Shown: one piece after another, positions 55,389-60,205 of the stretch | Numbering within the stretch: the first letter of the stretch is position 1 | Layout: each line of letters opens with the position of its first letter | Source: Mycobacteriales bacterium | Lineage (GTDB): Bacteria; Actinomycetota; Actinomycetes; Mycobacteriales; SCTD01 | DNA: 64,000 bases | NCBI GenBank assembly: GCA_040902655.1 | Contig: JBBDWV010000028.1 | Coordinates: 1,627-65,626 of the forward strand | Direction: 5' to 3' | Made by a program: the position numbers and the translations under genes | Notes under the pieces: generated by a model | Databases searched by the model: none | Seen by the model: the letters and a program-made list of their open reading frames with translations, nothing else | Told to the model about the DNA's origin: nothing

Positions 55389-56873
55389 ATGACCGAGCCT
55401 GCCGCGCGCGTTGACCAGTCGATGACTGCTGAACCCGCCTCCCTTCCCTCCGACGGCGCCGTCCGTCTCGACGACGACCTGCTGCCCTCGGAGTTCCACG
55501 AGATCGAGGGCGAGGGCTTCGACCTCGAGCAGCGCCAGGGGCTGCGCCGGGTCGCCGGCATCCGTACCGATCTCGAGGATGTCAGCGAGGTCGAGTACCG
55601 CCAGCTGCGCCTCGAACGGGTCGTGCTCATGGGCGTCTACGGCTACGGCGACGCGATCGGGGCCGAGAACTCCCTCGCCGAGCTGCAGGCCCTTGCCGAG
55701 ACGGCCGGCTGTGAGGTGCTCGAGGGCTTGGCACAGCGGCGCGAGAAGCCCGACCCGAAGACCTACGTCGGCTCCGGCAAGGCCAGGGAGCTGCGTGACG
55801 CGGTGCTGGCGTCCGGCGCCGACACCGTGATCTGCGACGGGGAGCTCTCGCCCGGCCAGCTGCGGAGCCTCGAGGAGATCGTCAAGGTCAAGGTCATCGA
55901 CCGGACCTGGCTGATCCTGGACATCTTCGCCCAGCACGCCACCTCGCGGGAGGGCAAGGCGCAGGTCGAGCTGGCGCAGATGACCTACATGCTGCCGCGG
56001 CTGCGCGGGTGGGGTGAGTCGCTGTCCCGGCAGGGTGGCGGCGCCGGCGGGTCGGGCTCCGGCGGTGTCGGCACGCGTGGGCCCGGTGAGACCAAGATCG
56101 AGACCGACCGACGCCGGATCCGCAACCGCAAGGCCAAGCTGGCCGGCGAGATCAAGCTGATGAAGACCGCGCGCGACACCAAGCGCCAGGAGCGTGAGCG
56201 CAATGCCGTCCCGTCGGTGGCGATCGCCGGCTACACCAACGCGGGGAAGAGCTCGCTGCTCAACCGCCTGACCGGCGCCGGCGTGCTGGTGGAGAACGCG
56301 CTATTCGCCACCCTGGACCCGACCGTCCGCAAGGCCGCCACTCCCTCCGGCCGGGAGTTCACGCTGTCCGACACCGTCGGATTCGTCCGGATGCTGCCGC
56401 ACCAGCTGGTCGAGGCCTTTCGCTCGACCCTCGAGGAGGTGGCCGGCGCCGACCTGATCCTGCACGTCGTGGACGGCTCGCACCCGGACCCCGAGGGGCA
56501 GCTCGCCGCCGTCCGTGAGGTCTTCGCCGAGATCGACGCGCACCGCATCCCAGAGGTGGTCGTCATCAACAAGTGCGACCTCGCCGACCCGGTGGTGCTC
56601 GGGCGGCTGCAGCGTCGCGAAAAGCACGTGGTGGCGGTGTCGGCGCTGACCGGCGAGGGTCTGCCGGAGCTGCTGCAGGTGCTCGAGCAGGAGGTGCCGC
56701 ACCCGGACATGCTGGTCCGCGTGTTGCTGCCCTACGCCGAGGGAGGCCTCGTCTCTCGGATCCACAGTGAAGGCGAGGTGCTCGCGGAGGAGCACACGGA
56801 GACGGGGACCCGGCTCGAGGCGCGCGTCGGTCCGTCGCTGGCGGCCGAGCTGAACGGGTACCTCGTCGCCTGA
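55389..56873 (+). CDS. hflX: Ribosome-associated GTPase HflX
   Basis: HflX splits stalled or stressed ribosomes; in mycobacteria it affects macrolide tolerance. The 494-residue protein has a variable N-terminus (1-60), the HflX domain (VGSGKARELRD, then GRGGxGxRGxGE-like GVGTRGPGETKIETDRRRI), and a GTPase domain: G1 GYTNAGKSS (281-289), switch I TLDPTVRKA, G3 DTVGFVRMLP and G4 NKCD. ATG 55389 has a weak GGGG ribosome site. The miaA-dapF-hflX order is conserved in actinobacteria. Confidence 0.94.
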   Translation: MTEPAARVDQSMTAEPASLPSDGAVRLDDDLLPSEFHEIEGEGFDLEQRQGLRRVAGIRTDLEDVSEVEYRQLRLERVVLMGVYGYGDAIGAENSLAELQALAETAGCEVLEGLAQRREKPDPKTYVGSGKARELRDAVLASGADTVICDGELSPGQLRSLEEIVKVKVIDRTWLILDIFAQHATSREGKAQVELAQMTYMLPRLRGWGESLSRQGGGAGGSGSGGVGTRGPGETKIETDRRRIRNRKAKLAGEIKLMKTARDTKRQERERNAVPSVAIAGYTNAGKSSLLNRLTGAGVLVENALFATLDPTVRKAATPSGREFTLSDTVGFVRMLPHQLVEAFRSTLEEVAGADLILHVVDGSHPDPEGQLAAVREVFAEIDAHRIPEVVVINKCDLADPVVLGRLQRREKHVVAVSALTGEGLPELLQVLEQEVPHPDMLVRVLLPYAEGGLVSRIHSEGEVLAEEHTETGTRLEARVGPSLAAELNGYLVA

Positions 56874-56965
56874 GCTCCTGCCCCGCGAGGGGAGGGCGGC
56901 GCTGCTGGTGGCTGCTTGTCCACAGCGGCCCCTGCGGCGGGTGATCCGCCGCTACTCTCCCGGTC

Positions 56966-57508
56966 GTGAGGATCCGGGCCGCCGCTGCCGCGCTGGTCAT
57001 GGCGACCGCCGTCGTGGCCTGCAGCAGCGATCCCGCGCCCAGTCCGCTGCCGACGCTGCCGACGTCGTCGCCGACGCCCAGCCCGCTGTCGGTGCCGGCT
57101 GAGGCGCTGGCCGAGACGCCGCATGGAGCTGCGGCGTTCACCCGGTACTTCTTCGACCAGGTGAACCGGGCCTATGTCGCGCGCGACGCAACTGTTGTCC
57201 AACGGCTGAGCACATCCGCCTGCGGCTCATGTGCTGCCGTGGTCGGCGACATCCAGCGCTTGAGGCGTGAAGGTCATCAGGTTGCTGGCCAGCGCTACAA
57301 GTTGACGTTCTCAGAGGCGGCACCAGCAGACAGCGAAGGCCGGATGATTGTCGACTTCGGCTTCACTGCTGACCCATACGTGGAGAGGGACAGCAGCAGC
57401 GCCATCGTCAAGGAGTTTCCAGAGAAAGGGCCACAGGAGGGTCAGACGATGTTGGTCCGCGTCGATGACCAGTGGAGAGTCGCGGCAGTGCGCTTGGTAA
57501 CCGCATGA
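56966..57508 (+). CDS. DUF6318-like exported lipoprotein, copy 1
   Basis: A 180-residue lipoprotein with a short signal peptide and lipobox VVAC (Cys about 18), a Pro/Ser/Thr linker, then the conserved ETPHGAAAFTRYFFDQVNRA and a CGSC motif (STSACGSC). It resembles the DUF6318 family of actinobacterial exported proteins, function unknown. A TACTCT -10 box lies 7 nt before GTG 56966, so the mRNA is probably leaderless. The stop overlaps the next gene as ATGA. The 5' 270 bp are nearly identical to copy 2 at 58.7 kb while the rest diverges. Confidence 0.8.
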   Translation: MRIRAAAAALVMATAVVACSSDPAPSPLPTLPTSSPTPSPLSVPAEALAETPHGAAAFTRYFFDQVNRAYVARDATVVQRLSTSACGSCAAVVGDIQRLRREGHQVAGQRYKLTFSEAAPADSEGRMIVDFGFTADPYVERDSSSAIVKEFPEKGPQEGQTMLVRVDDQWRVAAVRLVTA

Positions 57509-58386
57509 AGAAGAGCCGGGCTTCGCGACTGGCGTTCGCCCTCCTGCCTCTGACCTCCTTCCTCTGTTCTTGGATGGAGCAGGAGGCGGTTGCCACTCCG
57601 TCATGCCCGCCTACTTGCCTCGACGTAGATGAAAATGCATTTAGCGTCACGGTTGAGCAGGTTTCACATGGGGGAGCGTCGGCCGCAAAGCCGTCCAGCG
57701 GCCAGAAGGGCACCATCCCTACCCGCATCATCCAAAGGACCTACGTCCCCACCTGCAGCGGTAATTCGGGTGCTGCTTCGGGGGACTTGTGTCGTTCGGC
57801 GGTGGAGAGCTGTCCGGTGGAGGGGGAGGTGCGTTTTTGGGTGTTCACCCGTGAGTTCGACGTGGTGGCCGCTGCGCCGGTGACCGGGTGGAGGCGGGTG
57901 GCGGAGCCGTCGACGGTCTGTTTGGGGCCGGAGGATCCGGTGGTCGATCCGGTGGTGGCGATTCCGGCTCTGGTGCAGCGGGAGTTCCGGCGGGTCGTGG
58001 TGGTCAAGGGTGTGGCGGAGGTGTCGCCGAGGCCGCAGACGTTGGTGAACATTGCGACGGTGTTCACGACGAGTACGCCGGGCAGCTATGACATTCCGTT
58101 GACGTTGTTGGGCCGGTCGGTGGTCATCACGGCGATGGCGCAGCGGTGGACGTGGCATTTCGGGGACGGCGGGTCGGCGGCCACGTCGGTGCAGGGGTCG
58201 CAGGGATGGGTGGAGCATGAGTACCGGCGTGCCGGTGACGTGCAGGCGTACGTGGTGATCGACTGGTCCGGTAGCTACCGGGTCGGCGGTGGACCTTCGC
58301 GGTCGATCGCGGGTGTGGCGACCACGACGGGTGAGCCGGTGCCGGTGCAGGTCCGGCAGGCCCGCGCCGAGCTGGTGCGCGAGTAG
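57505..58386 (+). CDS. Secreted PKD-domain protein
   Basis: A 293-residue exported protein. It has a signal peptide (KKSRASRLAFALLPLTS), a divergent middle with several cysteines, and a PKD domain near the C-terminus (QRWTWHFGDGGSAATS, then VEHEYRRAGDVQAYVVIDWS). The first 300 bp use AT-richer codons than the flanking genes (for example 57620-57665), a sign of different ancestry from the C-terminal half. It is translationally coupled to the DUF6318 gene. PKD folds bind proteins or carbohydrate outside the cell; no enzyme motif is seen. Its last 126 bp recur at 59168-59293. Confidence 0.75.
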   Translation: MKKSRASRLAFALLPLTSFLCSWMEQEAVATPSCPPTCLDVDENAFSVTVEQVSHGGASAAKPSSGQKGTIPTRIIQRTYVPTCSGNSGAASGDLCRSAVESCPVEGEVRFWVFTREFDVVAAAPVTGWRRVAEPSTVCLGPEDPVVDPVVAIPALVQREFRRVVVVKGVAEVSPRPQTLVNIATVFTTSTPGSYDIPLTLLGRSVVITAMAQRWTWHFGDGGSAATSVQGSQGWVEHEYRRAGDVQAYVVIDWSGSYRVGGGPSRSIAGVATTTGEPVPVQVRQARAELVRE

Positions 58387-58679
58387 ACGGCCGCGTCGCT
58401 GGTCTGCCAGTAGCCCGGATGCGCTGGACCGCGGTCAGGTAGACCAGGGCCGTGTGACCCCGGACATGCACCCGGCGACGCAGCCGCCTTCTTCCGTCGA
58501 CGCTACGACGTCTGGCCGCTTCCCGCGAGCTACCACCGTGATCACGACAACCCGAAGTCGGCTGGATCATGCTTGGAGCTCGCGGGAAGTGCGGACGCGG
58601 CCTGGCGATGCGGCGCTGTTGGTGGCTGCTTGTCCACAGCGGCCCTTGCGGCGGGCGATCCGCCGCTACCCTCCCGGTC
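58387..58679. other. Spacer between the two array units
   Basis: No gene is seen. It contains a palindrome (58519-58589) and the duplicated promoter region that precedes copy 2 (from about 58615). Confidence 0.5.
58519..58589. repeat. 71-bp palindromic element
   Basis: Arms CTTCCCGCGAGCT (58519-58531) and AGCTCGCGGGAAG (58577-58589) are perfectly complementary over 13 bp. An inner TGATCA-like pair (58539 and about 58564) resembles the GATC-centred inner parts of the other palindromes in this window. Confidence 0.75.
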
Positions 58680-59213
58680 GTGAGGATCCGGGCCGCTGCT
58701 GCCGCGCTCGTCATGTCGACCGCCGTCGTGGCCTGCAGCAGCGATCCTGCGCCCAGTCCGCTGCCGGTGCTGCCGACGTCGTCGCCGACGCCCAGCGCGC
58801 TGTCGGTGCCGCCTGAGGCGCTGGCCGAGACACCGCATGGTGCTGCGGCGTTCACCCGGTACTTCTTCGACCTGCTGAACCAGGCTTTTGATAACGCTGA
58901 CGCCTCTGCGGTTCGGCGCATTAGCGACTCGGCGTGCGGTGGCTGCAACAACCTGATCGAAGCAATCGAACAGGAACCAATTCCAGGTGAACGAGTAGAG
59001 GGAGGTGATTTTCAGGTGGTCTTTGCCGAGGCGCCGCCTGTAGAGGACGGTGAAGTCGTCGTTGACCTGCGCTACGCACTGGCGGAGGGTCGTGTCGTCG
59101 CTGGTGACGGCCGCATACGCGAAGTCACTCCCGCCAACCCAGGGATAGATGCGCAACTACGGCTCGGGACTGGTCCGGTAGCTACCGGGTCGACGGTGGA
59201 CCTTCGCGGCTGA
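58680..59213 (+). CDS. DUF6318-like lipoprotein, copy 2 (altered C-terminus)
   Basis: A 177-residue paralogue of the 56966 gene. Promoter (TACCCT 7 nt before GTG), signal peptide, lipobox VVAC and linker are nearly identical; the domain after AAAFTRYFFDLLNQ is clearly homologous but diverged (SACGGCNN in place of SACGSC). The last residues (GTGPVATGSTVDLRG) come from reading the tail of a PKD gene in the wrong frame. The native C-terminus and most of the neighbouring PKD gene were therefore lost by a deletion ending at about 59168. Confidence 0.7.
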   Translation: MRIRAAAAALVMSTAVVACSSDPAPSPLPVLPTSSPTPSALSVPPEALAETPHGAAAFTRYFFDLLNQAFDNADASAVRRISDSACGGCNNLIEAIEQEPIPGERVEGGDFQVVFAEAPPVEDGEVVVDLRYALAEGRVVAGDGRIREVTPANPGIDAQLRLGTGPVATGSTVDLRG

Positions 59214-59293
59214 TCGCCGGTGTGGCGACCACTACGGGTGAGCCGGTGCCGGTGCAGGTCCGGCAGGCCCGGGCCGAGCTGGTCCGCGAGTAG
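59168..59293 (+). pseudogene. 3' remnant of a PKD-protein gene
   Basis: These 126 bp read, in their own frame, DWSGSYRVDGGPSR to ARAELVRE and a stop, matching the last 42 codons of the PKD gene (58261-58386) with few differences. There is no start; the segment overlaps the end of DUF6318 copy 2 in another frame. It marks the right end of a deleted second unit. Confidence 0.85.
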
Positions 59294-59416
59294 CCGGCCT
59301 GCGCCCGAACTGATCCGGGACGAGCCGACCGCGCCGCTGGTCGGCCGTCAGCAGGTCCGCGCCGAGCCGGTCCGCCGGCCGTCGGCGCCACCACGCCGTA
59401 CGGCCTCCGACCTCTG

Positions 59417-60133
59417 TCACACCTTGCGCAGCACCGTGACGACCCGACCCAGGATGACGGCGTCGTCGCCAGGGATGGGGGAGTAGGCCTCGTTGTGCGG
59501 CATCAGCCAGATGTGGCCGTCGCGCTTCTTGTAGGTCTTGACGGTGGCTTCGCCCTCGATCATCGCCGCGACGATGTCGCCGTTCTCGGCATCGGGCTGC
59601 TGCCGGACCACCACCCAGTCGCCGTCGGCGATCGCTGCGTCGACCATCGAGTCACCGATCACCTTGAGCATGAACAGCGTGCCGGTGCCGACCAGCTCGC
59701 GAGGCAGCGGGAAGACGTCCTCGACGGCCTGCTCGGCCAGGACCGGGCCGCCGGCGGCGATCCGGCCGATGACCGGGACGTACGCGGGGACCGGGTGGGC
59801 GGCCCGCGCGGCGGCCTCGTCCTGCAGCTGGTTGGCGGCTGCCGTCTCGCCGGGCAGCCGCACGTCGACGGCGCGCGGACGGGACGGGTCGCGGCGCAGG
59901 AAGCCCTTCTTCTGCAGCATGGCCAGCTGGTGCGACACGCTGCTGGTGCTCGCGAGGCCGACCGCCTCACCGATCTCCCGCACGGTGGGCGGATAGCCGC
60001 GGCGCTCGACGGAGTCGCGGATCACCTCGAGCACCTTGCGCTGCCTCGGGGTCAGCCCCGCCTCGTCCGGCGGGCCGTCGGGAAGGTCGCGGACCACGCC
60101 GCCGTCGTTCGCGGCTGCCTGCTTGCGCGCCAT
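59417..60133 (-). CDS. lexA: LexA, SOS repressor
   Basis: LexA represses SOS genes until RecA filaments trigger its self-cleavage. The 238-residue protein has a winged helix-turn-helix (residues about 28-92, [39 protein letters not shown]) and an S24 domain: cleavage bond Ala127-Gly128 (RIAAGGPVL), Ser162 (IGDSMVDAA) and Lys199 (ATVKTYKK). ATG 60133 has a GGAG ribosome site. The longer frame to 60202 overlaps the promoter. A -10 TAACGT (60186-60181) and an SOS box (60206-60221) lie upstream, so it is autoregulated. Confidence 0.96.
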
Positions 60134-60205
60134 GGGATCTCCGTCTGCTCGTGGGCCTCGCCGCCCGGGTGACGGTTGGGACGTTAACCCTCCCGAGGTC
60201 ACGAA

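Follow-up and report, generated by a model that had tools for sequence, protein, structure and literature searches.

How can two tandem copies of a gene for an exported lipoprotein be almost the same at their 5' ends and yet carry strongly diverged downstream domains, and is such a locus the product of an ordinary duplication or of repeated exchange of cassettes between strains? The question is raised by a 64,000-nt stretch of DNA of a Mycobacteriales bacterium (GCA_040902655.1, contig JBBDWV010000028.1, positions 1,627 to 65,626), referred to below as the window, in which two units lie between hflX and lexA (Table 1). A sequence-only reading of the window had described a nearly identical leader with promoter, signal peptide and lipobox, diverged domains behind it, a second PKD gene reduced to its last 126 bp and fused out of frame to copy 2, and AT-richer middles hinting at imported cassettes; it had proposed either a diversifying surface system or a polymorphic effector/immunity array. 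What was observed there is confirmed by the present analysis and proves to be part of something larger, a two-gene locus found in nearly every genome of a neighbouring family, the Geodermatophilaceae.

Table 1. Features of the hflX–lexA interval of the window (positions in the window).
Position	Strand	Feature	Basis
55389..56873	+	hflX (GTPase), left flank	ORF; orthologues 88-91% identical in the own genus; empty site in locus L064
56896..57176	+	constant 5' module, copy 1 (upstream ~70 nt, signal peptide, lipobox, linker, start of first helix)	direct repeat D1
56966..57508	+	unit 1 lipoprotein, DUF6318, intact	Pfam E 2.9e-9; NTF2-like fold predicted by homologue model
57177..57505	+	variable cassette, first half: C-domain of the unit 1 lipoprotein (allele class shared with G005)	DNA and protein identity profiles
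57505..58386	+	unit 1 partner: secreted protein with six cysteines in its N-half and a C-terminal PKD-like domain; ATG overlaps the TGA of the lipoprotein gene	ORF; signal peptide; Pfam and structural comparison
57505..57925	+	variable cassette, second half: N-domain of the PKD protein	right boundary placed by homology to the Geodermatophilaceae breakpoint at aligned PKD codon ~120-132
57926..58386	+	constant 3' half of the PKD gene, including the PKD-like domain	
58261..58392	+	3' repeat, copy 1 (end of the PKD gene)	direct repeat D2
58519..58589		25-nt palindrome between the units (84% complementary, 21-nt spacer)	
58610..58890	+	constant 5' module, copy 2	direct repeat D1
58680..59213	+	unit 2 lipoprotein, DUF6318; last ~10 family positions replaced by an out-of-frame tail	
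58891..59167	+	variable C-domain of unit 2, a different allele class (closest to G006, G007, G008, G014)	
59168..59293	+	remnant: last 126 nt of the unit 2 PKD gene (deletion scar at ~59168)	
59168..59299		3' repeat, copy 2	direct repeat D2
59417..60202	-	lexA, right flank	

Each unit consists, or consisted, of a DUF6318 lipoprotein gene followed, with an ATGA overlap, by a gene for a secreted PKD-like protein. The 5' modules of the two units are 93% identical over 281 nt and the 3' ends of the PKD genes are 94% identical over 132 nt; after the 5' repeat, DNA identity falls from 88-97% to 28-50% per 60 nt, and at the protein level the N-parts of the lipoproteins are 93% and the C-parts only 30% identical. 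Both 5' modules carry a GTG start, a signal peptide and a lipobox (VVAC|SS), whose cysteine is nearly invariant in 80 sequences, and both proteins exceed the Pfam cut-off for DUF6318 (PF19843), with 37.8 and 29.0 bits against 23.8; the relatives scanned belong to this family too. No sigma-70-like promoter and no Rfam hit was found in the repeat, so the promoter assigned to it earlier is unsupported. The core of the palindrome between the units occurs nowhere else in the genome, so it is not a dispersed repeat. The GC content of the lipoprotein C-part is 0.61-0.62 against 0.71-0.73 in the 5' module, but the same low value (mean 0.62) is seen in this domain across 78 relatives; it is a property of the variable domain and not by itself a sign of foreign origin, and the argument from AT-richness was therefore rejected.

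Single-copy fixation in relatives, together with uniform divergence along the gene, had been named beforehand as the outcome that would reveal an ordinary duplication, and neither was found. In a tblastn map with composition correction, the own-genus relative G003 has hflX 22 bp from lexA with no pair between them, while other relatives have one unit, up to three tandem units, or remnants. Divergence is sharply non-uniform in the same way in every multi-copy genome and sister-species pair examined closely, apart from one pair that shares an allele. Within the own genus the C-domain of copy 1 is closest to that of the relative G005 (47%), and that of copy 2 to those of the relatives G006, G007, and G008 (47, 44, and 41%) and even to G014 of another genus (37%, against 23% for copy 1), although the N-parts of the two copies are near-identical; the two copies thus carry two old allele classes behind one recent leader. 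As a side argument for variation or repeats at this place, contigs of 8 genomes of the own family break inside the unit where 2.7 breaks are expected from contig counts (P 0.006; contig numbers were rounded). In G005 the lipoprotein-PKD pair is flanked by 70-nt inverted repeats, 86% identical (locus L087, 4419-4485 and 5935-6004), and an M14-type carboxypeptidase-like ORF lies between the PKD gene and lexA. The interpretation as a diversifying surface system with imported cassettes is strongly supported, that as an effector/immunity array is not; the earlier reading also missed that the cassette crosses the gene junction and includes the N-half of the PKD protein.

A scan of genome contigs with the window lipoprotein found nothing, but a profile from an alignment of PKD proteins led by a Modestobacter sequence gave 78 loci, including loci from Modestobacter, Blastococcus, Geodermatophilus, Klenkia, Goekera, and Trujillonella. 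Of 99 Geodermatophilaceae genomes, 97 have a PKD match and 97 a lipoprotein match; the pair occurs in 97 of them, usually once, and 11 genomes have two or more lipoprotein matches. In Blastococcus sp. TF02A-35 three tandem units have 95-100% identical ends and middles at random level; B. xanthinilyticus and the dispersed copies of Blastococcus sp. TF02-09 behave the same, with one more diverged copy in the latter. At the orthologous site in sister species (Modestobacter sp. VKM Ac-2977 against M. caceresii; VKM Ac-2984 against VKM Ac-2985) 2.4 kb on each side is mostly 86-100% identical, while about 900 bp in the middle, running from mid-lipoprotein to mid-PKD gene, is 29-57% identical; for the former pair the flanks are mostly 93-100% and the cassette 37-48% identical, i.e., at random level. 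The right breakpoint falls at aligned PKD codon 120-132 in most comparisons and the left one mostly at DUF codon 48-72; in the window only the left boundary can be seen directly, because the PKD gene of unit 2 is deleted. One close pair, Blastococcus KM273128 and MG754426, has the same allele and diverges evenly, so the pattern is not an alignment artefact. In Blastococcus an ORF that looks like a DUF222/HNH endonuclease, not confirmed by a family search, follows the pair (loci L203, 5868-7304, and L109, 9790-11334) and might relate to recombination at the site.

In 78 pairs the mean amino-acid p-distances are 0.47 for the lipoprotein N-part, 0.66 for the lipoprotein C-part, 0.68 for the PKD N-part, and 0.27 for the PKD C-part. 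Nearest neighbours agree for the two constant parts in 34 of 78 and for the two variable parts in 29 of 78, but only in 12-20 of 78 across, and the partial Mantel correlation of the variable halves given the constant parts is 0.29 (p 0.001). Of 30 well-supported splits in the constant tree, 26 are contradicted by the lipoprotein C-domain tree and 21 by the PKD N-domain tree; genus changes number 12 on the constant tree and 24 on the lipoprotein C tree. Among 40 pairs with a PKD-constant distance below 0.08, which are not independent, 24 differ by more than 0.5 in both variable halves. The two variable halves usually travel together, but not always: of 44 pairs with similar PKD N-domains (distance <0.4), 21 also have similar lipoprotein C-domains (background 3%, i.e., about 15 times above background), but 17 have unrelated ones (distance >0.55). 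Geodermatophilus amargosae and G. aquaeductus share 82-86% of the PKD N-part DNA while the lipoprotein C-part is replaced, which argues against strict toxin/immunity or lock-and-key pairing.

Similar alleles evolve under purifying selection (dN/dS 0.08-0.25), with synonymous divergence above that of the constant ends in several pairs, as expected for old alleles; positive selection within classes was tested and not found. The GC content of the cassette is 0.62/0.67 against 0.76/0.71 in the constant parts. No relatives were found in the viral contigs, phages, or plasmids searched, so within these sets the cassette is not phage-borne or plasmid-borne. Single-copy genomes, including assemblies in one contig (G174, G277, and G158), hold no further cassettes or fragments at E<=0.01. 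In the window's own genome a distant PKD-partner-like match (E 2e-10) lies elsewhere (contig C38, 15851-16126).

The structural models are of a Geodermatophilaceae homologue, not of the window proteins. The lipoprotein was modelled for the M. caceresii homologue from 80 sequences; the model (pLDDT 92) has an NTF2-like fold, helices packed on a curved sheet, and its best PDB matches, at E ~1e-5 to 1e-3, include ARC6/PARC6 domains, ketosteroid-isomerase-like and NTF2-like proteins, with TM 0.4-0.55 by query, i.e., at the fold level only. An invariant CxxC lies in the variable domain. The partner protein has cysteines conserved across both families in its variable half; its constant half scores 20.4 bits for Pfam PKD against a cut-off of 23.5, and the top structural match is the collagenase PKD domain 4u6t (target TM 0.59, E 0.01), which leaves its membership of the PKD family undecided, hence "PKD-like". 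A sequence search of solved structures found no relative, and searches of PADLOC, PHROGs, NCBIfam, and Pfam gave no hits beyond DUF6318 and weak PKD. DUF6318 has no known function, the PKD partner and the cassette structure are not part of its description, and no paper in the library searched names it or was found to describe such a locus in this group; the partner family also lacks a known function.

We consider the locus, with a probability of about 0.6, an allotypic (many-allele) cell-surface locus diversified by exchange between strains and kept diverse by balancing selection. In this view a membrane-anchored NTF2-like lipoprotein and a translationally coupled secreted PKD protein are exported together and probably form a complex outside the cell; their signal sequences, the lipoprotein anchor region and the PKD-like domain are constant, while the rest of the NTF2 domain and the cysteine-bearing N-domain of the PKD protein form the exposed specificity part. 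Incoming DNA from other strains would recombine through the constant ends and replace the cassette; a crossover at only one end would leave a tandem of two units, later resolved by deletion, and the window would be caught at that stage, with unit 1 intact and unit 2 carrying another class and a deleted PKD gene. Arrays, orphan lipoprotein genes and PKD 3' remnants (in the window, the relative G022, and B. xanthinilyticus) are what such one-ended events and later deletions would leave. The constant/variable/constant mosaic, the recurrent breakpoints, the incongruent trees, the near-universal presence in Geodermatophilaceae, the purifying selection within an allele type, and the arrays and remnants are demonstrated by the data, whereas the surface complex, the replacement by homologous recombination and the balancing selection are deduced from them. 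No functional data exist, and neither complex formation, for which no co-fold was modelled, nor surface exposure is shown; several strains of one species were not compared, so the negative frequency-dependent selection thought to keep old allele classes rests on sister species and old alleles, and the low dN/dS gives no sign of ongoing positive selection. The loose matching of the two halves weakens any model needing exact pairing. As to the selecting agent, which is unproven, we lean tentatively to avoidance of recognition by phages, predators or competitors, with self/non-self or partner recognition a possible second and other causes only slightly less likely. Replacement of the middle of a core gene pair between sister species, in surroundings that stay about 93-100% identical, is a pattern that marks the places where bacteria are recognised by phages, predators, competitors, or kin, and the natural allele set, with sister strains differing at the cassette, makes it directly testable what these desert and rock bacteria are being recognised by.

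Of the alternatives, the one that survives best, though it is unlikely on present evidence, is a self/non-self recognition locus (kin recognition or partner choice), in which the variable faces decide which neighbours a cell adheres to or exchanges with; if true, this would be a previously undescribed two-protein recognition system of actinobacteria, core to the Geodermatophilaceae and spread between strains as a cassette, whose exposed domains define interaction groups. It is favoured by the core, single-copy state, by a cassette spanning adjoining halves of two coupled genes, by the co-travel of these halves and by old allele classes shared between species; however, no sensor kinase or signalling partner was seen next to the pair, neighbours differ between genera, pairing is not strict, and a phage- or predator-driven surface locus would look the same. 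In the Staphylococcus agr locus a hypervariable stretch likewise runs across the boundaries of adjacent genes (agrB/agrD/agrC), with allelic groups (PMC10482373), but agr encodes a membrane protease, a peptide, and a sensor kinase, whereas here the block holds only the genes of a lipoprotein and a secreted PKD protein, and the two halves can be exchanged separately. The Bacillus comQXPA pherotype locus shows intraspecific diversity of an adjacent gene set forming distinct communication groups (PMC4408185); its proteins are different, and no pheromone gene or kinase is present here, although the exact extent of the comQXP variable region was not compared. TraA/TraB of myxobacteria is a widespread, highly polymorphic surface locus whose variable domain sets many recognition groups across an order (PMC6372800); TraA is one outer-membrane receptor with the variation in one gene, while here two adjoining half-genes vary in a Gram-positive lineage. 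No homology to it was tested or found, and allele-specific cell-cell recognition was not assayed.

A polymorphic toxin/immunity array, with the PKD protein as effector, the lipoprotein as its immunity protein and lone lipoprotein genes as orphan immunity genes, is improbable. Constant leaders with a changing C-domain, tandem units, and orphan genes are shared with polymorphic toxin systems, and lipoprotein genes without PKD do occur (unit 2 of the window, copy 2 of B. xanthinilyticus in locus L201), while PKD without lipoprotein occurs only at contig ends or as fragments. In polymorphic toxin systems, however, the C-domains are often unrelated toxins with a dedicated immunity gene; here the pair is present in nearly all genomes, usually once, all alleles are one family with one fold, no known toxin or defence model was matched, and the combination of nearly the same PKD N-domain with unrelated lipoprotein C-domains would break immunity. 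Antigenic variation within one genome from silent cassettes, although arrays of up to three units exist, is very unlikely given the absence of a silent reservoir in single-copy genomes. Ordinary tandem duplication with fast divergence of an unconstrained domain, the ends being kept alike by gene conversion, is suggested only by the two side-by-side copies, one of them degraded, and is refuted by the cross-species class structure, the same pattern at the orthologous place in single-copy sister species, and the constraint within a class.

In the genome G273 (contig C1, 1611152-1613266) a lipoprotein gene is split into an N-part and a C-part about 1.6 kb apart, as if interrupted by an insertion, beside an intact PKD gene. 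In G032, a 2.4-Mb genome of another family, there are six PKD-like partner matches, several of them paired with DUF6318 (loci L113 and L114), a possible expanded set.
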